DNA from: a virus | IMG/VR virus record: IMGVR_UViG_3300023281_001375 | Location: 1 to 34,302 of that record | DNA: 34,302 bases | Strand: one strand, 5' to 3' | Part shown: positions 5,068 to 32,087 of the stretch, piece by piece | How positions within the stretch are numbered: position 1 is the stretch's first letter | Layout: the number at the start of each line of letters is the position of its first letter | Notes under the pieces: model-generated | Told to the model about the DNA's origin: nothing | Databases searched by the model: none | Seen by the model: the letters and a program-made list of their open reading frames with translations, nothing else | Translations under genes and position numbers: made by a program

Positions 5068-5880
5068 TCATCTTCCTCCGTTTTCTAACCGGCCCATAGC
5101 CGGATGCCACGTCAACGGAAACGACAGGCTACCATCGGCCTTCGCCTCACCATCCCGCTGCTTCAACACCTGCACCCATATCTGATCGCGTATACCACCC
5201 TTCGTATGGTAGACACCCCACACATGTGCCGCCTCCCGCTCCCCAGCATACAACAGGTCGGTCATCTTCATAGGCTTAGACCCCAGGCCGGCATCGTCGT
5301 CGCCCTTACGGACGACATGGTGGAGTGCCATGACTAGGACGTCCTGTTCCTCGGCCATCGTCTTGAGCATGGGGAGCTGTTCGGCGTAGAACGATGTGTC
5401 GTGGTGGTTCTTGCCGGGGATGATCGAGTCGATGATGTTGTCGATGATGACTAGGGGCGGCGAGTAGCCGATCCATTCACGCATCGCTTCGATCCTCTCT
5501 GACATGTGGTCGGGGTGGAGTTTACCGCCCTGCACTACCAACGTTTTGCGGACTTTCCGTTTGAGCTCGGTCGATAGTTTGTTTCGGCCTTCTGGTGTCT
5601 GTGTGAGTTCGTAGATCCGATCTGTTTTCTCTGCCATGCCTAGGGCGGAGAGGCGGGAGAGGATCTGTGGTACTTGGTCTTGTGCGAAGTAGAGTACGGG
5701 GTAGTCTACTTGCATGGCGATGTTGACTGCGAGTGTGGACTTGCCTCCGCCTGGCCCGCCGGCTGCGACGATGAGTTCTTTGGTGTGTGCTTTGACACGG
5801 GATTGTAGGTCCCAGTAGGGTAGTCGTAGGCGGGTGCCTACGGTGCCTTTGGTGGACATTGCTTGGGCTAGTGATTGCAT
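5068..5880 (-). CDS. Replicative helicase-like ATPase (DnaB/RecA fold)
   Basis: 270 residues, ATG 5880 preceded by GAGAGGAGAG. Walker A is GGPGGGKST at 41-49, Walker B is LVIIDN in the PPLVIIDNIID segment, and VLVMALHHVVRK then LLYAGEREAAHVWG follow as in the motif 3 and arginine-finger parts of DnaB-family C-terminal domains. The protein lacks the DnaB N-terminal domain, so it is a single RecA-like core, similar to short phage helicases or RadA/RepA-type ATPases. Gene order (helicase, primase zinc domain, TOPRIM) supports a replication role. It is the first gene after the RNA array and starts 14 bases past the tRNA. Confidence 0.85.
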   Translation of the reverse strand: MQSLAQAMSTKGTVGTRLRLPYWDLQSRVKAHTKELIVAAGGPGGGKSTLAVNIAMQVDYPVLYFAQDQVPQILSRLSALGMAEKTDRIYELTQTPEGRNKLSTELKRKVRKTLVVQGGKLHPDHMSERIEAMREWIGYSPPLVIIDNIIDSIIPGKNHHDTSFYAEQLPMLKTMAEEQDVLVMALHHVVRKGDDDAGLGSKPMKMTDLLYAGEREAAHVWGVYHTKGGIRDQIWVQVLKQRDGEAKADGSLSFPLTWHPAMGRLENGGR

Positions 5881-5894
5881 GCTCTCCTCTCAAA

Positions 5895-5977
5895 TGGTAC
5901 TAGGAGCAGGAGTCGAACCTGCAATAGCCTTCTGGCACCGGAGTTACAGTCCAGCTCGGTCACCTATCCGCCCTAGC
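5895..5977 (-). tRNA. tRNA-Tyr (anticodon GTA), CCA encoded
   Basis: Read on the minus strand: acceptor GCTAGGG pairs with TCCTAGT (with G-T pairs), D-arm CGG/CCG, anticodon arm CTGGA-CTGTAAC-TCCGG giving anticodon GTA, a long variable region typical of bacterial tRNA-Tyr, and T-arm GCAGG-TTCGACT-CCTGC. Discriminator A is followed by an encoded CCA (5895-5897). It is embedded in the leftward operon between the structured RNA modules and the helicase gene, so it needs processing out of the mRNA. Confidence 0.9.
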
Positions 5978-5986
5978 TTGTAAAGG

Positions 5987-6051
5987 CTGGCACCCTAGTC
6001 TCGTACTGTGGATACTTGGGCTTCCACAACGCCCATCTCCTAGGGTGCCAG
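5987..6051 (-). ncRNA. Structured RNA module 3: 12-bp stem enclosing a pseudoknot
   Basis: On the minus strand CTGGCACCCTAG (6051-6040) pairs perfectly with CTAGGGTGCCAG (5998-5987). Inside, GGGC (6034-6031) pairs with GCCC (6021-6018), and TGTGGA (6028-6023) pairs with TCCACA (6012-6007). The two pairings interleave, as in an H-type pseudoknot. The element lies nine bases from tRNA-Tyr and touches module 2. There is no poly-U tail, so a plain terminator is unlikely. It matches no RNA family I recognise. Confidence 0.55.
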
Positions 6052-6052
6052 T

Positions 6053-6152
6053 ACCACCGGCCCGACTCGAACGGGACTTCCTTAGCAGTCGCCTACTCTG
6101 CATGCCTCGGGATACCCACCCTTCAACGGGTTGGTCCCTTCATGGCGGTGGT
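6053..6152 (-). ncRNA. Structured RNA module 2: tRNA-like, with T-arm
   Basis: The ends ACCACCG (6152-6146) and CGGTGGT (6059-6053) form a perfect 7-bp acceptor-like stem followed by an A. Next to the 3' strand is CCCG-TTCGAGT-CGGG, with the canonical tRNA T-loop. Inside are two more hairpins: ACC-ACCC around GTTGAA (6135-6114) and GCAG/CTGC (6101-6085). I could not fold a normal D-arm and a 7-base anticodon loop, so this is either a very divergent class II tRNA or a tRNA mimic. CCA is not encoded. Confidence 0.5.
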
Positions 6153-6155
6153 TAA

Positions 6156-6249
6156 TGTGGGTAGCCAGCCTTTAACTGGTCGAGTAGCCAACTCCGTCCG
6201 CAACCCTAAGGTCGCTTGCAAGCGTATACGTCGGAGCCTCTTACCCACA
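6156..6249 (-). ncRNA. Structured RNA module 1: cloverleaf-like, unknown
   Basis: TGTGGGTA (6249-6242) and TACCCACA (6163-6156) form an 8-bp closing stem for a 94-base element. Inside, CTCCG/CGGAG (6236-6232 with 6196-6192) encloses a hairpin GCGACC-TTAG-GGTTGC (one G-U pair), and CCAG-TTAAAGG-CTGG lies next to the 3' strand where a T-arm would be. The T-loop consensus TTCRA is absent. It begins six bases after the stop of the upstream gene. The shape recalls tRNA, but no anticodon can be assigned. Confidence 0.45.
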
Positions 6250-6255
6250 AACTTG

Positions 6256-6729
6256 TTAGACGCCTGCGATAGCCTTCAACTCGCCGATCAACTCAGTCAC
6301 AGTCTTCCGCTTCCAAGTACCAATCGTACCCATGTCAGGCTGACCATCAGGCAGATACAGGCTCCCCTTCACCGGGCCGATCTTCTGACCGTGGTCGGTC
6401 AACAGGAGGCTAATGTAGTTGAGCTGCTTCTCGGTTGGGTTGTCGCCCGGAATGGGCACGTACCTTTCTGGGGTGCCGTTAGACTGTGGTGTAGCTGATG
6501 CCTGCCCTCCCCAGTTCCCGCTCGGCTGCGGCGTAGGGTTTGCCGGCGCTGCCTGACCCACAGCGGCGGCACCTTCGATCTGGACGAACCTGTCAGCCAC
6601 CAGCAGACGGGACAGTGTGGCCACTGCGTCTGCGAATGCTTCGAGCGACGCCCATTCTTGGCTGGCTAGTGCGTTGGCTGCTGCCGTATGGCTGTCGTTG
6701 ATTGCGATTTGTTTGTCTGTCGGTGTCAC
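6256..6729 (-). CDS. Hypothetical protein, 157 aa
   Basis: GTG 6729 is the likely start: GGAGGAG lies just upstream and its GTGA overlaps the RNA ligase stop. Residues 1-75 look helical, 80-115 are rich in Ala, Pro, Gln and Gly (linker), and the C-terminal 55 residues (TEKQLNYISLLL ... TVTELIGELKAI) form a compact helical domain of a kind seen at the C-termini of phage DNA-metabolism proteins. The layout resembles a single-strand DNA-binding or recombination accessory protein, but this is not shown by any motif. The RNA array starts six bases after its stop. Confidence 0.65.
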   Translation of the reverse strand: MTPTDKQIAINDSHTAAANALASQEWASLEAFADAVATLSRLLVADRFVQIEGAAAVGQAAPANPTPQPSGNWGGQASATPQSNGTPERYVPIPGDNPTEKQLNYISLLLTDHGQKIGPVKGSLYLPDGQPDMGTIGTWKRKTVTELIGELKAIAGV

Positions 6730-7676
6730 GATGACTCCTCCTGTGTTGCGAACTGTCGTTCGGCGAGCTTCTGCTTGTACCATTCTGGCAGGCCACGTCC
6801 CAGGCCCCGCATGATCTGAGGCGACGACCAGTTCCACACTTGGGCCATCATCCAGTGCTTCTCTTCGTTGAAGGCGTCGTCCTTGACGGCCTTCATGAGG
6901 AGGCCGATGTCTTTCGGCGTGTGAGTGAGTAGCCCATCCTCGGCGAGGTGCTGCACCGCTTTCTCCCAGCGGGCTTCAGTATTGACCGACTCCACTATTT
7001 GTCCAACCACATCCTGGCCACCAGGATTCCGTCCCTTCCAATCTTTCTTATGTGCCTCTTTGAACGCCTCGGACACGTACTTCCCGGCGAGCATCTTACC
7101 ATCTGCTCCGAACCGGGTCCGGTTCTTGATAACGATACCTTCAACTTTCGACCCTCCAAGGAACGAGTCCCGGTCGAGATAGTTGTCGAGTGCTTTCATG
7201 TTGACGAACGAGCCGTGTTCGTTGGCGAACTCTGGCACGTAGCTGATGCCGAGAGCGCCAGCCCAAGCGTAGAGGGCCACGTCGGTTTGGAATCTGTCCT
7301 GTCCGTACTCTACGTCGAAGAGAGCGAGCCCGTTGTGCGGCATCTCATCGTAGGCGATGGTGTTGTGTTTCGGTTTCGACATGTACTCTGCCCGGAAGAT
7401 GGTTGGTCCCCGTTCGAGTTGGGGGTCGATGGAGGCGAGGCCGGAGAGGTAGTCTATCGCCGGCTGGAACATCTTGTCTGTTTCGATGCCGGGGCCGGCC
7501 TGCATCTTACCCTTCGACCGTGCCCACAGTGTGCCGCTCTCGTCCCACATGAATGAGAATTGGGAGCCGTCTACTTTCTCTTGGATGGTAATGGGCCCGT
7601 CGAGGAGGCCGTCGATGTCTGGGTGGCCTAGGTTGCGGACTTTGGGGTATGATGGGATGTTCATGTGGTTGTCCAT
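6726..7676 (-). CDS. T4 Rnl2-type RNA ligase
   Basis: 316 residues. Nucleotidyltransferase motifs are in order: EKVDGSQF (motif I, Lys 34 is the adenylated lysine), IFRAEYM (motif III-like), VEGIVIKN (motif IV) and AGKYVS (motif V). The family joins 3'-OH and 5'-phosphate RNA ends using ATP. The C-terminal 100 residues are helical, as in Rnl2. ATG 7676 or ATG 7664 may be the start; the latter forms an ATGA overlap with the nuclease stop. Its position beside a tRNA and tRNA-like elements suggests RNA repair or circularisation. No polynucleotide kinase/phosphatase is seen in the window. Confidence 0.88.
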   Translation of the reverse strand: MDNHMNIPSYPKVRNLGHPDIDGLLDGPITIQEKVDGSQFSFMWDESGTLWARSKGKMQAGPGIETDKMFQPAIDYLSGLASIDPQLERGPTIFRAEYMSKPKHNTIAYDEMPHNGLALFDVEYGQDRFQTDVALYAWAGALGISYVPEFANEHGSFVNMKALDNYLDRDSFLGGSKVEGIVIKNRTRFGADGKMLAGKYVSEAFKEAHKKDWKGRNPGGQDVVGQIVESVNTEARWEKAVQHLAEDGLLTHTPKDIGLLMKAVKDDAFNEEKHWMMAQVWNWSSPQIMRGLGRGLPEWYKQKLAERQFATQEESS

Positions 7677-8715: not shown

Positions 8716-9296
8716 TCGGCTGGTCCTAGGATGCCCAACCATTCGGCCATGTCCAACGGCAACACCATCGGGCCTTGCCGACTGCCTGTGTCGTTGTCGA
8801 TCAGGTAGTCGGCAAGGCCAAGGTGGAGTTGTTCTGACTGGTGGGAGCTCGCCGCTACCAGCTCATCCCATCCGAGACCCAGCCTGGCGGCTCTTGTACG
8901 TACAGAGGCTTGTACCATTGCTACCTTCCCGCCCATTTCTTGGATCATCTTCGCTTCGTTGTCGTAGCGGACGTCGGTGATACACACTACGCCGTCGATG
9001 TCTCTCGCGGACTCCTCAATCTGGACCCGCAACCGGTCAACCCAGTAGTCCGGGTCTACCTTACGTCGCAGGTCTGTGCCCCACCACTGCATCAGAGCTC
9101 GCACCGTAGGCGAATACGGTTTGTTGTACAGTGCCGACAGGTGCCGGCCACCGTTGAGTTCTTCCATGATCTCGAATCGGATCTCGTCTGCGAACGCTAG
9201 GCGTGCCACATTCCCAGGCCATTTGATGCCGGCGATCTGTTCGTATAGGGTGTCTTTGCCGGCGCCCATGTAGCCGGTGATGCCAAGAACTTTCAT
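8712..9296 (-). CDS. Deoxynucleoside monophosphate kinase
   Basis: 194 residues. A P-loop GYMGAGKD lies at 8-15. FADEIRFEIMEELNGG, the WWGTDLRR segment and CITDVRYDNEAKMI are hallmarks of phage dNMP kinases of the T4 gp1 type, which phosphorylate dNMPs to dNDPs with ATP. Length is in the usual 180-240 range. It would supply nucleotides for phage DNA synthesis, including those released by host DNA degradation. The start at ATG 9296 overlaps the upstream stop. Confidence 0.88.
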   Translation of the reverse strand: MKVLGITGYMGAGKDTLYEQIAGIKWPGNVARLAFADEIRFEIMEELNGGRHLSALYNKPYSPTVRALMQWWGTDLRRKVDPDYWVDRLRVQIEESARDIDGVVCITDVRYDNEAKMIQEMGGKVAMVQASVRTRAARLGLGWDELVAASSHQSEQLHLGLADYLIDNDTGSRQGPMVLPLDMAEWLGILGPAE

Positions 9297-15688: not shown

Positions 15689-15713
15689 AGTACGCTCCTC
15701 CTCTAGCACAGGG

Positions 15714-15741
15714 AAGAACCCCCCATTCCGGGGGGTTCTTT
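15714..15741 (+). terminator. Terminator-like hairpin before terminase
   Basis: AAGAACCCCCC (15714-15724), loop ATTCC, GGGGGGTTCTT (15730-15740), then a short T-containing tail. The 11-bp stem is very stable. The terminase GTG start lies only six bases after it, so the hairpin may also act on terminase translation or mRNA stability. Confidence 0.65.
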
Positions 15742-15746
15742 CGTAT

Positions 15747-17804
15747 GTGACTTCAGGTTTCCCCTTCTACTCTCGGCAGACCCGCATCGAGTACATCGAG
15801 CGGATGCTGCCCACCCGCTACAACTACCATCAGGACTTCGTGAAGCGGACTGACGGTACGTCGTGGTCGATGAAACAGATCGCGTTCGACGTGTTCACCT
15901 ATTTCGGCGAACCGAAGAACCATGCCGGCGCGAACCGGCCGGTGTCGCCTGCTACAATCAAGAAGGACATGGAGATCATCCGCGACCGGTTCGAGTCGGA
16001 ACGTGACGCCCGTCTGAAAGGCGAACACCCCGACGACATCCTCGACCCGCACAATTTCGCTACGTGGCGTGGCAACGCTTTCACCGACAGGACAACCGGC
16101 AACAAGTTCGTCACCCCCATGCATCAGATGGCATGGTTCTGGATCATCGCAGCGGTAGCGTTGAAGAACCGTCATGCCGTGGAGATCCCCCAATGGGTCA
16201 TCTCATATTTGGACCTCCCACCTGACATCAACTCGAACATCCTCGACATGAAGACGATGATGTCGTTCATCCTGTTGGGACCGCCCCGGCATGGGAAGAC
16301 AGAGTTGGCGTTGCATACGATGATGTGGCTGATGTGCCGTGATAAGGGCATCCGCATCATCTTCAACAACGGCCCGTTGAAGACGACGAAACAGCAGATC
16401 GAACATATGAAATGGCACCTCGAACACAACGAATATCTGATCGCAGGTTGGGGGCCCTTCAAAGACGACGAGGTGAAATGGGCACAAGACGAATTCGACA
16501 TCGTAGGGGCGGAGGTCCAGGCGAAGGCCAGAACGGTGAGAGGCGTGGGTACCGGCACGAACGTCAACTCGCTCGACGCCGACGTAATCTTCGTGGACGA
16601 CCCCCAAGGACCCAAAGAGGCGATGTCCGAAACACAGACGGACTCTGACTACCATTGGATGGCGACCGGACTTATGTCCCGCCGCGAACCACACACCGGC
16701 TTCATCGGGTTGGGCTCACACCAGCCGTCCCCTACCGGGGACCTGTGGACGAAGATCGAGTCTGCTGCGGAGGAGCTGACTATCGGCAACCATGTGCTTG
16801 TGATCCGCAAAGTGAAAGCGCATGACTATAATCTGTGCGATGAGGACAAGGACCCCGATCATACGGAGTGTGTGCTGTGGCACGAGCTAAGACCTTTTCA
16901 CTATTTGGAAGCGTTGCGCGCCTTGTTGGGCGACGACACCCTGTTCGAAGCGGTGTACAATCAGCAGCCCCGGTCGAAGGAGATGGAACACTTCCCGACA
17001 GAAATTCTCGATTCCACATACACACAGCCGCAGACGGTCAACGGTACTACACCAGTGTATACGGGACACGATATCGGCTCGGGGATGGTGGAGTTTCTAC
17101 CAGGGGTATTAGACCGCTCAAGGGCGTGGAAGAGGATACCCGTGAAGTGCTGCTCGACCCCGTTGATGGTCGTAGCGGGAGTGGACCCGGCGGGTGGTGG
17201 GAAGACGAAACGGGCTTCGTTCACTGCTGTGATTGTGCTCGCTGCCTGTCCGAAATGCCGGCGAAGATATTTGGTAGACTATGGCGCCAAGAGGATGTCG
17301 CCAGAGCAAATCCCTCTCTTCGTAGAAGGATTCTTGAAGTCCTATCCAGCCGTAACACGCATCCAGTTCGAGTCGAACGCCTACCAGAAGGCCCTATCCC
17401 GCGACCCGCGGGTGAAGGCGATGGGCATGAAATACAGGGTGACGATAGCGGAGTGGAACACCGACGAACGGAAACACGACCCCGATCTCGGCATCCCAGT
17501 GCTCGGCCGGTATGTGAAAGCGGGCATGCTCTCTATACCTGCTGCCGGGGTGGAATCTGTTGTATATGCCAAGAACCTCATCGCCACGCTGAAACGTTGG
17601 CCGGCACCCCCTAACGACATTGCGATGGCCCTCTGGCTCGCCGACCTCCTCCTCATGAAAATGATCGACAACTACTGGTTCCAGCAGGAAGCCCCCGACG
17701 TCATGCCCGGACATCACATCTCCGAACATGGCAAACAATCCTACATCGAAATCCCCCTTGCGCCTGCGGAGGAATATCAGGGGGTCGAAATAGCGTTTCA
17801 ATAG
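15747..17804 (+). CDS. terL: Terminase large subunit
   Basis: 685 residues from GTG 15747; the frame is open further upstream but the residues before it are not protein-like and run through the terminator, so the start is here or at ATG 15804. ATPase motifs: Walker A GPPRHGKT at 178-185 and Walker B ADVIFVDD at 278-285. The nuclease domain has AGVDPAGGG (Asp 480), IQFESNAY (Glu 542) and NDIAMALWLAD (Asp 624), the three metal ligands of the RNase H-like terminase fold. A CPKC pair follows the first nuclease motif. The enzyme cuts concatemeric phage DNA and drives it into proheads through the portal encoded next. Confidence 0.93.
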   Translation: MTSGFPFYSRQTRIEYIERMLPTRYNYHQDFVKRTDGTSWSMKQIAFDVFTYFGEPKNHAGANRPVSPATIKKDMEIIRDRFESERDARLKGEHPDDILDPHNFATWRGNAFTDRTTGNKFVTPMHQMAWFWIIAAVALKNRHAVEIPQWVISYLDLPPDINSNILDMKTMMSFILLGPPRHGKTELALHTMMWLMCRDKGIRIIFNNGPLKTTKQQIEHMKWHLEHNEYLIAGWGPFKDDEVKWAQDEFDIVGAEVQAKARTVRGVGTGTNVNSLDADVIFVDDPQGPKEAMSETQTDSDYHWMATGLMSRREPHTGFIGLGSHQPSPTGDLWTKIESAAEELTIGNHVLVIRKVKAHDYNLCDEDKDPDHTECVLWHELRPFHYLEALRALLGDDTLFEAVYNQQPRSKEMEHFPTEILDSTYTQPQTVNGTTPVYTGHDIGSGMVEFLPGVLDRSRAWKRIPVKCCSTPLMVVAGVDPAGGGKTKRASFTAVIVLAACPKCRRRYLVDYGAKRMSPEQIPLFVEGFLKSYPAVTRIQFESNAYQKALSRDPRVKAMGMKYRVTIAEWNTDERKHDPDLGIPVLGRYVKAGMLSIPAAGVESVVYAKNLIATLKRWPAPPNDIAMALWLADLLLMKMIDNYWFQQEAPDVMPGHHISEHGKQSYIEIPLAPAEEYQGVEIAFQ

Positions 17805-19567: not shown

Positions 19568-20095
19568 ATGCCCAGAGGTGGACAGAATCAGCGGCCAGAC
19601 GGTCGGCAGGCCAGAGCCCCTGGAGTGGGGAAGACTGCGAGACGCCATGATTTGGAACAGCCGAAAACTCCGGGCCTTCACGGCTCGGACCTTCAACAGG
19701 GCGACGTTCAAGAGTTGGAGGCAGGGCAGAGGCAAATTCCTATCCGTCAGAAGCCTGCGCCCGCCGCACGACGTCCTGCCGCCGGGGGTAACAATCCTAG
19801 ACGATCTAGAGCAGCACAGTCCAGTAACGGCGGAGGCGTACCGTCGCCTGGTGATGTGGCACGCCAACGTCTCGGCGGGACCCTCAACCGCAACCAAGCG
19901 AGACAAGCCCACCAGTTGATCGACGGTCGCCCTTGGCTTCCGATTCTCCGTCAGATGGCTAACACGCCTACTACGTCGGGTCTGTTGACTTCGGCGTATG
20001 TCGCTGCCGGTTCTGAGGCTCTTAGGGGAAGTTACCGTCAGCCAGGACTCATAGAACTTGACGTCTTGGATCGCGCCTTCGATCAAGGACAATAG
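19568..20095 (+). CDS. Hypothetical disordered protein, 175 aa
   Basis: ATG 19568 directly follows the portal stop (TAAATG) with AGGAG eight bases upstream, and the stop lies just before the start of the giant gene. Residues 1-115 are rich in Arg, Gln, Pro and Gly and are probably disordered and nucleic-acid binding; residues 118-175 are ordered (LIDGRPWLPILRQM, GLLTSAYVAAGSEAL). A different frame at 19647-19919 within it also looks protein-like. Likely a small virion or assembly protein. No family is recognised. Confidence 0.6.
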   Translation: MPRGGQNQRPDGRQARAPGVGKTARRHDLEQPKTPGLHGSDLQQGDVQELEAGQRQIPIRQKPAPAARRPAAGGNNPRRSRAAQSSNGGGVPSPGDVARQRLGGTLNRNQARQAHQLIDGRPWLPILRQMANTPTTSGLLTSAYVAAGSEALRGSYRQPGLIELDVLDRAFDQGQ

Positions 20096-20096
20096 C

Positions 20097-23000
20097 ATGG
20101 TCGCACCTTTGACGGCGACCGGGTTGGGAGTGAACCCGTATGCTACCGGTCAGCCGGTAGGCGTTTCAATCTCTTCCGCCCCCAGCACGCCAACTCTCAT
20201 ATCCAATACGATCTCGGGTGTCACCACCGCCCTCGATCAGCTACCAATATTGAACCCGTTCGTGACGGGCAACCTCATGAACCAGCAGGCCCTGCTCATA
20301 GCAGCCCCTGAGATTTTGGCGACGACTAATACGCCGGCAGCAGGGTTCATGAACGAAGGCATAGGCGGCGAAGTCCTAGGAGCGTTAGTAGGTATCACTG
20401 CGACTTCGGGTACGCTCAGGGCGTATGCGTCCGTTTCGGACATGCTCGACCAAGAAGAAGGGTCACGCGCATTCTGGGACGAATTCGGCAAGTCTCTCCG
20501 CTCGCAAGAACGTGACGTCATATCGTCGCTGCTTATGCCGCTCAGTCATGATAAACGGAACAACGCTTCCGCCCTGTTCGTAGAATACTTGCGGAATCAG
20601 AAGATCGACACTGAAGAGGACCGCGACGACTTCCTTTTGTTCGTGTACAATGTTACGGCTAAAGGCGAAGAAGATATGCGGTCGGAAGCTTCCGGGTTCG
20701 GAAGGTTCGGAGCCATGTTGGCCGCACCCTACAGGGCCGTCGAAGGTGCGGTGTCCCGCCTGTGGGCCTCGTCTGCCGGTCCCGAAGATTACGCTCACCG
20801 ACAATACTTTACCATCGGACAGAACGCCGCGATCACTCTCGGCGTTGACCCATCAGACGAAACGGCATGGCGAAACACGTCAGGCGCAATCGACTTCGCT
20901 GCCAACCTGTCGCCCCTCGACCCCATCAACGCCGTCGCCGGTTTCATGACCGGCATCAAAGCAGCCAGGTCCATCCCCCGCCTCGAACAGTACGGCCGTG
21001 TCCGTTCATTCTTTCAGATAGGCAGGACAGCCCAAGGTCACATGCCGATCATGTCGAGAGGCATAACTTCCCGATTCGCATTCTCAATGTTCTCGAAAAA
21101 CTTAGATGACCTCAGCCGTTCGGGCAGGTCGATGGCGACGTGGGCTAGGATGGCGAAGATCGACAACCTTGGTCAGCTCATGGACGAGTTCCCCGAACTC
21201 CAACCTGTCATAGCTACTCTCGGCGAGTCTATCGTCAAGTCCGAAAACCCTGAACATATTCGAGAGACTATCGTCGCCGCAATGACCGGCAAACTTGCCG
21301 AAGCGGACGATGCAGCTCAAGCTCTCCGCGTGAATGCCCTGGCGGGCGACTACGACGAGTCTATAGCCGCTTTCGACAGGGCGACACGTCAGGCCGCCGA
21401 AGATGGACGTATCGGTATCGGCTCGTTGGATTCGGGCATCCATCCGATGACCGGGGCCGTATACGATATCGGTGAAGAAGGTTCGAAAGTTCTCACTAAG
21501 ACCACTGCGAACGGCGACGGAGCGCAGAAGCTCGCCACCCGTGTTGACATGGAAACGGCAGTCCTCGACCAAGAAGGGCTCGCCCAAGCGGTACAATGGC
21601 TCGCCAAACAAGACGACACAGCCGCCCAGGCAGTGGCAGCACGACTGACAAACAGGGGCACCTCCTCCGCAGGAGACCTCGCAGGCGACATCGGAGTTTT
21701 CGTAGACGACATAGACGACCTCAACGCTGGCCGCATGGTCATGGAAGGACTCAGCGAAGACGAAATCGTATGGCTCGAAAGGTACCTGGCATCAACCGGC
21801 AAACAGGCCCTCGAAGGCTCAGACGGGATAATCCTCACCGCACAGGGCAGACGAATGAGCATTCAAGCGGCAGACATCGCAGATGCTGTCCCGATGGAGA
21901 AAGTGCTCCGCGGAGAGAAACTGAACGCCGTCCGTGCGACCGCACTCCACACCCGTGCCAAATCGGCCAACCCGCAAGCATGGGTCATCACCAACCTGCC
22001 GCAGAACCGTACCGGAATCGGATCTCTCATCCGTGGACCGTGGAAACCGCACGCTCAGGGCGACGTCAAAACGTGGGGCTCCTATTTCCGCCGTAACATC
22101 TCTTCGGCTTTCAAACCTGGCGCCCCTCGGGCGATCAAACTCACCCATGCGGCCGAAGGCGCCGAAGACCTCAACCGGTTCCTCACCCGTGCCGGCGTCA
22201 GCCGCAACCAAAGGCAGACGTTCGTACACAGGTTCGTCCAGTCAGACACTTCTGAACGTATAGATGTCATCAACGACGCGATGCGCCACATCGGCGAAGA
22301 AGCAGGACATCCGCTGCTCGAAAATGGGCTCGTGAACTGGTCTACGAAGGATGGCGCTGCGAAGTATATACTCGACGGCGACGGCAACGAAGTGGCAATG
22401 GTGGCATCGTCTCGTGTGGGAGCAGAGGGCAAGGTGGCCGTGCCGCTCACAAGAGCTCACCTGGCCGAGTCGTTCCCGCTGCCCGGAGACGACTTCTTCC
22501 GCATGCTCAACCGGTTCCAAACCTCACAATCCTCCAAGACTCTGACCTTCTCGAAGGGCCTGTTGGGGGGTACCCGCACCCGCCGTGCTGAGATTGGTAG
22601 GCGGCTCCGCCGCCAGTACGAACGTCGGGCAGGCGAGTCCGCTAGGAAACTGACCGACGAAGACCTCGTTCATCTCGCATACGCGGACGTGGTTGGCGGA
22701 GCCGCAGGCCGACAGAACGGCCTAGGGGCCATGTCGCAGGTCCGTCAGGTAGCTTCTGCCGGCTGGCGTGGAGCGACACGGACGTTTTCGATTGCCATGC
22801 TCGCTTTCCGCCCGTTCGCATGGGCGGGCCGTGTCCTCTTGGAAGAGACGATCCGTGCTGAGTCCATGTCGCAGGTGTCAGTCCTTTCACGTCCGGGCAT
22901 GTATGTTAGCGCCCTGTGGGACGCCCACGGTTCACGCCATTACGCTTCCCGTGTTGGGAAACAGATCGACGCCGTAGGGTCGATTGTCGATAATGCGTTC

Positions 23001-26000
23001 GCTAACACGTCACGTAATGTGGCGGGGGCACTTGCCGCGGGTGAAGAGCTCATACCGGGTTTCAAGGCGTTGGCGGAAGCTGAAGGCATTCTGAGCAACC
23101 CTCGCGCCATGCAAGACCTTGCAGGGCATCTCCTCGCCAAAGAACTTACGGGGGGAGGGGCGCTTAAGCTGGACGACGTGGGCGCTATCGGAGCGCGAGT
23201 TCTACGCCGTAGAGACCGCATCACTACTTCTGCTGCTCGCATGGAGAAGAGGGGCCTGACGCCCCACATGGACGTTTCAATGGACGTCCCCGAAATGCTC
23301 AACCGGTCCCTCGTCTCCGACTTCTATCGGGAGTCTAACGGGGCGCACGATACGGTGCATTGGGCGCCTAACATGTCGGGTCCCGCCCTCGAAGCCTATT
23401 CGAGAGGTTGGGGTCGTGCGGTCCATCAAGTGCTCGATGACGGTCAGGACGCGCCGATGTGGGCGCTCCGCCGGCTACGAGACAAGACGCGGGGCGGCTC
23501 TGTGCAAGTCGGTAACCGGGCACAGGACTTTATCGCTTCGCCTACGTTCCGTGATCTTCGCCGAAATATTGAACGGGTAGCACGAGATTACGAATGGGAA
23601 GAGCTCGGCGATACGGTGGCGATGGTCGAACGGTACTTCGATGAGATTATCGAACCTCACGTTGAGAACCTTTTCTCTCCGCTTATCAGCGGCGACAGCC
23701 GCCTCATGCAGCTCGATTCGATCATCGACCAGAAGGCCCTAACTCAGACTGCGGGTGGTAACACCCGGCAGATACGACATTCTTCGGGCAACCGGTATGA
23801 GTCGTTCCAGAAGGAAGTCCTCGAATTGGTCACGGACGCCCAGGTTGAGGGCGTCCAATTCCCCAATGCCATAGCGACAGTTCTCGATCCAAGGTTCGGC
23901 CGGCGGGACGACCTGAACCTGTTCAACAAGGCCATCAACGGGACTCTACAGATTTTCGGTGAGACACTTACCCAGCGGATGCACCGTCAGCCAGGATTCA
24001 TCGTCCAGAACCAACGGTACTTCAACCATTACCGCGGTCTGGGCATGTCTGCCGAAGTGGCTTCTGACCTCGCCAGGGAGATGGCTTGGAAACGAATCAA
24101 CTACGTATATTTCAACCAGGCGGAGATCCCCCGGTTCCTCCGGTCGATGAACGATGTGTCGCCGTTCTTCTCAGCCATGTGGGAAGTGGCTTCTACGTGG
24201 ATGTACAAGATCCCGATGGAGAACGGCGGGCTCGGCATGGGCCATGCGTTCATGCTCCGCAAACTTGACCGCGTATTCGACGGGTTCCGCAACGTGGGCT
24301 TGATAGAAGAGGGCGACCCTGACGCCTCCGGTGACCGACCCATGCAACTGGTGTTAGACCCTGACGCCCCCCTGCCTGCCTCACGTTGGGCGGCAGCAGT
24401 CGCCAGGTCACCGTTCAAAGTGATAGAGCATCTGTCGTCGCTGACAGGTCTGCTCCGCACCGACGATGACCCGATGACAGCAGAGGACGAGTCTGGTGGG
24501 CTTAACCTTCTCGCCAATGCTAAGGACGAGTGGCGTATCTCTATCGGTAACCCGATGAACCCGAACTCAAGGGGTGTCCTTTCAACGATGCAGTTGGGTG
24601 TCGGAGGTCAGCCGATCATACAGCCTGTCATAGCACGGATACAGAACAGACTGCCGTTTATGGCAGATAACCGTATCTCCGATACCGAATCGGAAACGAT
24701 GACAGCCTACTTCGCCCGTAACGAAGTGACCAACGAATCTGCGGTTCTCAGATGGAACGAAGACCTCCTCATTGAAGAGCTCGGTGATGAAGTGTACCGT
24801 CGCATGGTTGACGGGTCGCTCGACCCGATCCTCCCTGCCGGCCTCCAACTGCAACTCCCCGGTACATCCCTCATCAAGACCCTCACCGACCGTATCATCT
24901 TCCCATTTGAACGGGTAGAGACCACAACCGATGTCATGTGGGCTTACGTCCCCGACGTCTACAATCATCTGTTCCGCAGCATGGGCCTTTGGTTGGATGA
25001 TGGCGACGGTGAGGGCGGGTTCATGCCGATGGCGTTCGACGCGCCATCACAGTTCGCTATGGAAACGGAAACAGGATCTCAGTTGGCGCAGCTCGAAGCC
25101 AACGAAGGGCTCCTCTCACAGTTGGAGCTCGAATCTCAGCAACTCGCCTACCTCGCATCACAGATCGGCATATCGCAGGAAGACCTGGCGAAAATCGCCA
25201 ACCCAGCCGACCCGCGAGTCGTAGAGTATCAAGAGCAGCAGCGGAGAATCGAAGAGAAAGTCCAGATGATTCTCACCCGTGCCACCGACAACGCTGCGGG
25301 GACGATGCTCACAAGGTTCCTTATGGGCATGGTCATGCCCGCCACCCCCAGGTTCAAAAACTTTGAGGACGACATGCGGAGCGACTTCTACGTGGCCCGC
25401 GAATGGGCGGAAGCCGGCGATGCCCGCTATGCTCCCGGTCAGGCTGGCGAGTGGAAACCCGGACAGTATGTTGGGGCGCCAAAGGTCAGAACCAAAGAGG
25501 ATCTTATCAGGTTCGGCGCTACGGTCGAACGGTTCCTTGAAGACCCTTCCGGGTCGGCTTCGAAAGCATGGTTCAGGGAGAACTATCCTGGCGTTTACGC
25601 CTCGCTGCTGGGCCGGTCGTTCTGGGCTGGACTGGGTGAGCCTCCAGAGTTTACGTCGATTGACGAACATTTCCAACAGATCGAAGAGGGCCTGGTCGAA
25701 GCCTATTCGCCTGGCGTCCAATTGCAACGGATTCAGCGGTTCGGCGTGTCGGCCGACTTGGAGATAGCGTTGGCGGAAACGTTCGGTAACGTCCCTACGA
25801 CCTCTGCTGTGTCTATCCTTTGGAACCAACGCGACTATAAGGCGCTGAAAGACAAGGCTAACGAACGTTACGACGTGTTGGACACGATGGACGACATGTT
25901 CAACGACAGCGAGTACCAGCATCATCGCAACACTGCCTTCGAGGAAGAGGATTCGCTGACGATCCTTCAGGAGAAACGCCGGCAGATGGACATGTATTTG

Positions 26001-26993
26001 GATTCGGTTGACGAGATCCTGACTGCTATCGACACGTTAGATTTGGACCCGCAGAAAGAACGGGAACTGAATGCAGCGTTAGGTAATTTCTCTAGAAAGA
26101 TCCGTAACGGTTTGACCGCGTTGCGGGCAGACACAGATTTCAAACAGAACGACCGGGACAGGCTCCTGTCAATGTATTATGAGGAAGTGGTGACGCCATA
26201 TTATGAGCGTCTGTCCGTCATGTACGATGCGGCGTTCGACGCCGATTCTTCAACTACCCGCACACAGGTCTTTGAGGAGATCCGCCAGTTCAAGAACGCA
26301 GCATATATCAACTCGCCTCAGATGGCTGGCCTGAACGTCCCGTCCGAACAGGAACGCTATTGGAATTCTCTGTCGGTTGAGCAGCAGCAGCAGCGGATCG
26401 AGAAGTCTATCGGTCAGCCGCCTAACTGGCAGTCTCAGCATCTGATCGACCGGACGGTCGAGAAGTACCCGGATGCGGCACAGTATTTGCCGACGACGGA
26501 ACGTGAGATGAGTCCCCATTTGGAAGCGGCCCGCGTCAAAGCGGAGGCGGCGGCTTTGAACCGTTCGTTGAATCCGATTACGGGTGAGCTGATGTTGACG
26601 ACGGGGGACCGTAACAAGATTTACAAGCAGGCGGATGAGCGGCTGCGGGAGATACTGCATGAGACCGGCCGCGGGTCTGAGGCATGGTATTTGGATGCAC
26701 AGCCGATCCAGCGGCTGTCGGTTGTCGGCGCTTTGCCAGGCATTTTGGAGCCTGCCGTTGAGGGTGTGAATGCGATCATGGGACATTTGGAAGCGGTCGA
26801 TAAGGGCCCGAAGTCTGAGCTGGGTCAGCAGTTGTTCCTCATGTTGAGGAACCAGGAGACGGAACGGTGGGGTCAGGATGCCCGCGTGAGGGAAGCTTAC
26901 AAGTATCTTGGTATCAACATGTACGACGAGTCGTATGTGCCGGCCGTGCTGGCCCGGCTGTTCTATGGTGATTCGTTCGGAAGCTTAGGGTAA
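20097..26993 (+). CDS. Giant internal virion / DNA-ejection-type protein, 2298 aa
   Basis: ATG 20097 is used because AAGGAC lies upstream and the earlier ATG 20058 sits inside the preceding gene. The protein is mostly helical. A hydrophobic segment near residues 890-910 (FSIAMLAFRPFAWAGRVLLEE) and another near 1340-1375 (VSPFFSAMWEVASTWMY) may be amphipathic or membrane-active. Charged helical and Gln-rich coiled-coil parts fill residues 1670-1730 and 1930-2120. No polymerase, lysozyme or protease motif was found. Its place between portal and capsid genes and its size fit internal virion proteins that are ejected with DNA in podo-like phages. Function is inferred from context. Confidence 0.7.
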   Translation: MVAPLTATGLGVNPYATGQPVGVSISSAPSTPTLISNTISGVTTALDQLPILNPFVTGNLMNQQALLIAAPEILATTNTPAAGFMNEGIGGEVLGALVGITATSGTLRAYASVSDMLDQEEGSRAFWDEFGKSLRSQERDVISSLLMPLSHDKRNNASALFVEYLRNQKIDTEEDRDDFLLFVYNVTAKGEEDMRSEASGFGRFGAMLAAPYRAVEGAVSRLWASSAGPEDYAHRQYFTIGQNAAITLGVDPSDETAWRNTSGAIDFAANLSPLDPINAVAGFMTGIKAARSIPRLEQYGRVRSFFQIGRTAQGHMPIMSRGITSRFAFSMFSKNLDDLSRSGRSMATWARMAKIDNLGQLMDEFPELQPVIATLGESIVKSENPEHIRETIVAAMTGKLAEADDAAQALRVNALAGDYDESIAAFDRATRQAAEDGRIGIGSLDSGIHPMTGAVYDIGEEGSKVLTKTTANGDGAQKLATRVDMETAVLDQEGLAQAVQWLAKQDDTAAQAVAARLTNRGTSSAGDLAGDIGVFVDDIDDLNAGRMVMEGLSEDEIVWLERYLASTGKQALEGSDGIILTAQGRRMSIQAADIADAVPMEKVLRGEKLNAVRATALHTRAKSANPQAWVITNLPQNRTGIGSLIRGPWKPHAQGDVKTWGSYFRRNISSAFKPGAPRAIKLTHAAEGAEDLNRFLTRAGVSRNQRQTFVHRFVQSDTSERIDVINDAMRHIGEEAGHPLLENGLVNWSTKDGAAKYILDGDGNEVAMVASSRVGAEGKVAVPLTRAHLAESFPLPGDDFFRMLNRFQTSQSSKTLTFSKGLLGGTRTRRAEIGRRLRRQYERRAGESARKLTDEDLVHLAYADVVGGAAGRQNGLGAMSQVRQVASAGWRGATRTFSIAMLAFRPFAWAGRVLLEETIRAESMSQVSVLSRPGMYVSALWDAHGSRHYASRVGKQIDAVGSIVDNAFANTSRNVAGALAAGEELIPGFKALAEAEGILSNPRAMQDLAGHLLAKELTGGGALKLDDVGAIGARVLRRRDRITTSAARMEKRGLTPHMDVSMDVPEMLNRSLVSDFYRESNGAHDTVHWAPNMSGPALEAYSRGWGRAVHQVLDDGQDAPMWALRRLRDKTRGGSVQVGNRAQDFIASPTFRDLRRNIERVARDYEWEELGDTVAMVERYFDEIIEPHVENLFSPLISGDSRLMQLDSIIDQKALTQTAGGNTRQIRHSSGNRYESFQKEVLELVTDAQVEGVQFPNAIATVLDPRFGRRDDLNLFNKAINGTLQIFGETLTQRMHRQPGFIVQNQRYFNHYRGLGMSAEVASDLAREMAWKRINYVYFNQAEIPRFLRSMNDVSPFFSAMWEVASTWMYKIPMENGGLGMGHAFMLRKLDRVFDGFRNVGLIEEGDPDASGDRPMQLVLDPDAPLPASRWAAAVARSPFKVIEHLSSLTGLLRTDDDPMTAEDESGGLNLLANAKDEWRISIGNPMNPNSRGVLSTMQLGVGGQPIIQPVIARIQNRLPFMADNRISDTESETMTAYFARNEVTNESAVLRWNEDLLIEELGDEVYRRMVDGSLDPILPAGLQLQLPGTSLIKTLTDRIIFPFERVETTTDVMWAYVPDVYNHLFRSMGLWLDDGDGEGGFMPMAFDAPSQFAMETETGSQLAQLEANEGLLSQLELESQQLAYLASQIGISQEDLAKIANPADPRVVEYQEQQRRIEEKVQMILTRATDNAAGTMLTRFLMGMVMPATPRFKNFEDDMRSDFYVAREWAEAGDARYAPGQAGEWKPGQYVGAPKVRTKEDLIRFGATVERFLEDPSGSASKAWFRENYPGVYASLLGRSFWAGLGEPPEFTSIDEHFQQIEEGLVEAYSPGVQLQRIQRFGVSADLEIALAETFGNVPTTSAVSILWNQRDYKALKDKANERYDVLDTMDDMFNDSEYQHHRNTAFEEEDSLTILQEKRRQMDMYLDSVDEILTAIDTLDLDPQKERELNAALGNFSRKIRNGLTALRADTDFKQNDRDRLLSMYYEEVVTPYYERLSVMYDAAFDADSSTTRTQVFEEIRQFKNAAYINSPQMAGLNVPSEQERYWNSLSVEQQQQRIEKSIGQPPNWQSQHLIDRTVEKYPDAAQYLPTTEREMSPHLEAARVKAEAAALNRSLNPITGELMLTTGDRNKIYKQADERLREILHETGRGSEAWYLDAQPIQRLSVVGALPGILEPAVEGVNAIMGHLEAVDKGPKSELGQQLFLMLRNQETERWGQDARVREAYKYLGINMYDESYVPAVLARLFYGDSFGSLG

Positions 26994-31955: not shown

Positions 31956-31991
31956 AGAGTAGTCCCTATCCGGGGGTGAATTATCTCGGCG

Positions 31992-32014
31992 AGGGCCCCC
32001 TATTGGGGGCCCTT
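31992..32014 (+). terminator. Terminator-like hairpin after the capsid genes
   Basis: AGGGCCCCC (31992-32000), loop TATT, GGGGGCCCT (32005-32013), then TTGTCG. A very stable 9-bp stem at the end of the scaffold-capsid-decoration unit. The short T-run makes it a modest intrinsic terminator. The rest of the gap up to 32087 shows no convincing promoter. Confidence 0.65.
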
Positions 32015-32087
32015 GTCGTGGAATGATCTCTTCGAATGTGATGTTGTTATGAGAGACGGTTTCCTACGAAGAGCAGAAAGATAAACT

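Follow-up and report, generated by a model that had tools for sequence, protein, structure and literature searches.

To our knowledge, RNA C of bacteriophage T4 has long been known without an assigned function. This RNA (species 1 RNA, rnaC) is 139 nt long, lies in the T4 tRNA cluster and has a T-arm that is plain in its sequence. It has been seen by Northern blot and is a confirmed late RNA of unknown function (PMC9697503). We found RNA C to be widespread in T4-like phages, with 718 phage records carrying it. Comparison of seven Tevenvirinae homologues revealed that 6 of the 17 base pairs in the acceptor stem, the short hairpin and the T-arm were changed on both sides, a number reached by none of 500 shuffles. 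In six of these seven homologues, U/U mismatches replace two pairs of the acceptor stem. RNA C gave nothing above chance against Rfam and is not a tRNA for that database. T4 RNA C and RNA D (locus L082, 1409-1672, minus strand) are conserved and have no family in Rfam 15.

A survey of phage tRNA arrays, covering six further phage records and six T4-like loci, revealed more tRNA-like RNAs that ARAGORN misses; in some, which reach 109-128 nt, the anticodon region is enlarged. Odd RNAs of this tRNA-like sort are hence no rarity in such arrays. Four RNAs of 109-128 nt that ARAGORN did not call lie at L085 896-1017, L083 1649-1776, L168 4075-4198 (reverse complement) and L172 5243-5351; their acceptor stem and T-arm are intact, the D-arm is mostly recognisable and the anticodon/variable region is enlarged. 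Further tRNA-like RNAs, of 113-121 nt, were observed in KVP40 (L168 8971-9091, 9102-9214, 7305-7417 (-)) and in an IMG/VR jumbo phage (L172 12523-12642, 13615-13735 (+)). These carry approximately 40-50 extra nt in the anticodon arm and score 46-56 bits with the Rfam tRNA model. The three KVP40 RNAs have in common an inserted hairpin with the loop UGA(C/U)AA followed by C(U/A)GC, on stems that differ (GATAC/GTATC, GAAGTC/GATTTC and GAATAC/GCATTC, the last with one mismatch). The extra sequence in the KVP40 and jumbo phage RNAs could represent small introns, or the anticodon arms may have been enlarged deliberately.

The locus described here lies in an IMG/VR virus record of 34,302 bases (the window, that is, the whole stretch of DNA analysed), the gene content of which is actinophage-like and includes a WhiB domain, a DnaB family protein (phrog_243), a polymerase exonuclease (phrog_403) and a terminase. 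Four RNA elements are arranged end to end on its minus strand: M1 (6249-6156, 94 nt, closed by a perfect 8-bp stem), M2 (6152-6053, 100 nt, closed by a perfect 7-bp acceptor stem), M3 (6051-5987, 65 nt, closed by a perfect 12-bp stem) and tRNA-Tyr (GTA) (5977-5895, 83 nt). The spacers between them are 3, 1 and 9 nt. These lengths and gaps had been given in a first-pass annotation and were confirmed to the base, the three closing stems proved as perfect as it had claimed, and the fourth element, described there as a normal tRNA-Tyr, was found by both ARAGORN at default settings and Rfam (30.4 bits). Directly upstream of M1 is a 157-aa ORF without a family match (6256..6729, minus), which is preceded by an RNA ligase gene (PF09414, phrog_548; 6726..7676, minus), and downstream of tRNA-Tyr is a DnaB-like helicase gene (phrog_243; 5068..5880, minus). 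The array wholly takes up the 375-nt interval between the co-oriented 157-aa ORF and DnaB-like gene, with 6 nt between the stop codon of the ORF and M1 and 14 nt between tRNA-Tyr and the ATG of the DnaB-like gene. Elsewhere in the window, the structural gene half contains a 2,311-codon open frame (20058-26993, +) with no Pfam or PHROGs match, beside which ORFs of 503, 470 and 693 aa are likewise matchless. At 8771-8819, 15707-15747 and 31987-32018 lie further inverted repeats, in which short loops join arms of 14-18 nt; these may be terminators or regulatory hairpins.

Thermodynamic folding of the whole array bore out the proposed modular organisation, in that the minimum-energy structure consisted of exactly the four domains. 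The acceptor/T-arm stack is a standard tRNA feature and was not tailored to this locus. The acceptor/T-arm and domain descriptors were picked after viewing the sequence, and the following shuffle figures are guides: 2 of 3,726 dinucleotide shuffles of M1-M3 gave at least three domains closed by at least 7 bp and covering 95% of the length; a 7-bp acceptor stem adjoining a T-arm with a TTNNANN loop is expected 1.1 times per shuffled 34-kb window, counting both strands; and an all-Watson-Crick element of this type arose once in 3 of 40,000 shuffles of M1-M3 and twice in none of 40,000. The same acceptor/T-arm scan of the real window returned M1, M2 and tRNA-Tyr in tandem and a few isolated, chance-like matches. 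Folding z-scores were -1.9 for M1, -1.4 for M2, -5.0 for M3 and -0.4 for tRNA-Tyr, and the folding energy of the array as a whole was unexceptional (z -1.04). Architecture is better evidence here than energy, which alone decides nothing. We regard this tandem of structured RNAs as genuine and unusual, and its anatomy as well supported.

Both M1 and M2 have the 7-bp acceptor stem and adjoining T-arm with a 7-nt loop that characterise tRNA; in each, the T-stem consists of four clean pairs and a mismatch or bulge. An anticodon arm with a 5-bp stem and a 7-nt loop is absent from the best folds of both. Each has an A after the acceptor stem and no encoded CCA, whereas the CCA of tRNA-Tyr is encoded. 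In M1 the T-arm, CCAG-TTAAAGG-CTGG, abuts the acceptor stem; with C56 missing from its loop and no D-loop GG apparent, it is doubtful whether M1 forms the usual L-shaped elbow. Two folds are available to the interior of M1, a longer hairpin and a class II cloverleaf. The latter comprises a D-like arm, an anticodon-like arm whose 6-nt loop contains UAG, a GAGU/ACUC variable arm and the T-arm, and the anticodon-like loop of the alternative fold has 4 or 6 nt. The statement that M1 does not fold into a standard tRNA is correct for its best fold, but M1 comes closer than claimed, since the class II cloverleaf costs only 3.8 kcal/mol more than that fold. The T-arm of M2, CCCG-TTCGAGT-CGGG, had been called canonical; this is true of the loop, but the stem has only four clean pairs, with a T/C mismatch or bulge at its base. 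M2 folds around a cloverleaf-like junction in which a long irregular hairpin takes the D/anticodon region and is followed by a short AGTAG-GCGA-CTGCT hairpin.

ARAGORN at default settings called tRNA-Tyr alone in the array. An Rfam search carried to E <= 10 likewise matched only tRNA-Tyr, leaving M1 and M2 unmatched by the tRNA model RF00005. The view that the array is not a run of ordinary tRNAs was thus upheld. A permissive ARAGORN search, which the annotation had proposed, gave nothing convincing, nor did the intron and tmRNA modes; the extra calls made with relaxed thresholds were of low quality and cut across the modules. The annotation's suggestion of tRNA mimics is apt for M1 and M2, in which the acceptor/T-arm half resembles tRNA much more than chance would allow, but not for M3, which has no T-arm. 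We considered and rejected a tmRNA, as neither ARAGORN nor Rfam reported one at default settings and the relaxed mode yielded an implausible permuted call. An attachment-site remnant was also rejected; no integrase was present in the subset of ORFs scanned, and a remnant leaves the matching 5' acceptor strand unexplained. The motif GAGTWGGCKACT, common to M1 and M2, had 69 IMG/VR matches when followed by a T-loop. It is not diagnostic, because four of the 69 coincide with tRNA calls, which are ordinary tRNAs, and the rest are chance-like.

T4 RNA C is the closest known RNA to M1 and M2. Like them, it lies end to end with phage tRNAs and has an acceptor-like stem that abuts a T-arm. It further resembles M2 in having a short hairpin before the T-arm and a large hairpin region that replaces the D and anticodon arms. 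This layout of acceptor stem, large hairpin region, short hairpin and T-arm is clear in M2 and is present in M1 in one low-energy fold only. In contrast to M1 and M2, RNA C is 139 nt long, occurs as a single copy in a different phage group and has the U/U-mismatched acceptor stem in six of seven homologues, and no sequence or model match extends beyond the T-arm. When a covariance model of RNA C (R1, built from seven homologues) was run against the array, it matched only the T-arms of tRNA-Tyr (5.4 bits) and M2 (3.3 bits). The builds are therefore similar, while kinship is not shown. The RNAs of 109-128 nt from KVP40, KM16, IME523 and the IMG/VR jumbo phage share with M1 and M2 an altered middle, and most are missed by ARAGORN. 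Unlike M1 and M2, they keep a recognisable D-arm, and several score 45-55 bits with the Rfam tRNA model. The RNAs GOLLD and ROOL are much larger and have Rfam families. They resemble the array in being structured RNAs near phage tRNAs (PMC12286853); Rfam found no match to either in the array. Phage tRNAs are reported to counter tRNA-targeting defences (PMC10264068, PMC11555353), and the acceptor end of tRNA is the point of action of some defences (PMC11559606, PMC12851939). The defence-evading phage tRNAs decode in the ordinary way and differ in their anticodon loops, whereas M1 and M2 lack a normal anticodon arm.

M3 is an element of another kind than M1 and M2, without a T-arm. Its 12-bp stem is not extraordinary by itself, as it is one of six inverted repeats of at least 11 nt within 120 nt in the window, two of which are perfect throughout. 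The 41-nt interior can form an H-type pseudoknot in which GGGC (6034-6031) pairs with GCCC (6021-6018) and TGTGGA (6028-6023) pairs with TCCACA (6012-6007), giving stems of 4 and 6 bp and loops of 2, 1 and 5 nt. A pseudoknot of this type arose in 51 of 200,000 shuffles of the interior, and a search of IMG/VR for the pattern returned no match. BLAST of the array against 50,697 phage records matched tRNA-Tyr only, and M1 and M2 alone gave no match at E <= 10. No relatives were found in IMG/VR through the DnaB, RNA ligase or terminase proteins. The polymerase exonuclease led to 80 IMG/VR loci, at identities of up to 44%, that had no other window gene in common. The RNA ligase found nothing in GTDB genomes and no match among PDB sequences. 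As these searches, from which very near relatives of the window may have been withheld, found no homologous array, the intact stems appear to be the sole sign of selection on M1-M3.

RNase P and other enzymes that act on tRNA ends read the acceptor/T-arm stack. We tentatively favour, at somewhat short of even confidence, a reading in which M1 and M2 are non-decoding tRNA-like RNAs that are excised as tRNAs are and serve most likely as mimics or decoys, with M3 a separate piece of the transcript. M1 and M2 would share a transcript with tRNA-Tyr, in the interval that separates the RNA ligase/157-aa ORF pair from the DnaB-like gene, and their 12-bp acceptor/T-arm stacks would cause them to be cut out and protected like a tRNA. 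The products would be small, presumably stable RNAs that carry other hairpins where a tRNA has its D/anticodon part. Their most probable use would be to mimic tRNA and, as decoys, to engage a host or defence protein that works on its acceptor/T-arm half; taken by itself, this decoy role is a conjecture and rather doubtful. M3 would be structured separately within that transcript and could serve as a spacer or in processing. The non-decoding, tRNA-like reading draws support from the lack of any shuffle with two acceptor/T-arm elements among 40,000, the four-module fold, the ARAGORN and Rfam non-calls, the filled intergenic space near the RNA ligase gene and the existence of RNA C with the same parts. 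Counting against it are the ordinary energy of the whole array, the lack of an array homologue in our searches and the doubtful elbow of M1. The upstream RNA ligase gene fits a phage that copes with damaged tRNA, which proves nothing.

The main rivals of the mimic reading are decayed tRNA genes and RNA-processing signals. M1 and M2 could be what remains of a longer tRNA array, tRNA genes that are decaying or scrambled and without a function of their own. The sequence GAGTAGGCGACTGCTAA...TTCGAGT of M2 resembles the D-arm/anticodon-arm junction of ordinary tRNAs from other phages minus one strand of the anticodon stem, and for M1 a class II cloverleaf can be drawn in which the anticodon-like loop has 6 nt. 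Decay would, however, be expected to strike all parts alike, whereas the acceptor stems (7/7 Watson-Crick pairs) and inner T-stems (4/4) are intact in both modules and the remainder departs from tRNA; the packed spacing has also been kept, and M3 is not visibly derived from a tRNA. We consider decay unlikely. The modules could also be processing signals (tRNA punctuation), in which case cuts by RNase P or related enzymes at M1, M2 and tRNA-Tyr would separate and protect the flanking mRNAs, and whatever is released would be a by-product. In favour of this, the array leaves only 6 and 14 nt free between its two co-oriented neighbours, M1, M2 and tRNA-Tyr all present acceptor/T-arm stacks, and mRNA ends can be protected by stable closed hairpins such as M3. 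tRNA-Tyr alone would nevertheless be enough for cutting, and two elaborate modules and a pseudoknot exceed that need, which makes punctuation a fairly improbable account.

M1 and M2 might instead be working but very divergent tRNAs, M1 for example being a class II tRNA with UAG in its 6-nt anticodon loop. The small cost of that cloverleaf would permit this, and tRNAs of non-canonical structure exist (PMC7609411). The failure to match any tRNA at E <= 10, the missing C56 and the 6- or 4-nt loop of M1, and best folds of M2 without a 5-bp/7-nt anticodon arm make this reading very unlikely. A single multi-domain switching RNA is suggested by a long-range complementarity, in which the 3' half of M1 (6174-6159), instead of pairing within M1, could form 15 bp, interrupted by one bulge, with the 3' strand of M3 and the linker that leads to tRNA-Tyr (5995-5981). 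This was found after several comparisons and was equalled in 15 of 20,000 shuffles. Forcing its 11-bp core cost only 5.8 kcal/mol relative to the best fold and left M2 closed and tRNA-Tyr untouched. The local fold, however, forms first during transcription and is favoured, the more so with the M3 pseudoknot, and we regard a switch as quite improbable. Besides reflecting a switch, the complementarity could have arisen by inverted duplication or, several comparisons having been made, by chance.

M1 and M2 belong to a kind of tRNA-like RNA at which T4 RNA C had already hinted. Such RNAs escape standard tRNA finders, and even a small survey gave several further odd ones of 109-128 nt. M1-M3 form a compact element of 263 nt that is amenable to testing in laboratory strains. 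A bolder proposal, which we consider unlikely, is that unrelated phages (T4-like phages and the actinophage-like virus described here) separately evolved non-decoding acceptor/T-arm mimics that inhibit host or defence enzymes acting on the acceptor end, with two such mimics and a pseudoknot RNA in tandem in this virus. A second, unrelated phage with two RNA C-like builds in tandem would suggest that half-tRNA mimicry is a general strategy of phages.
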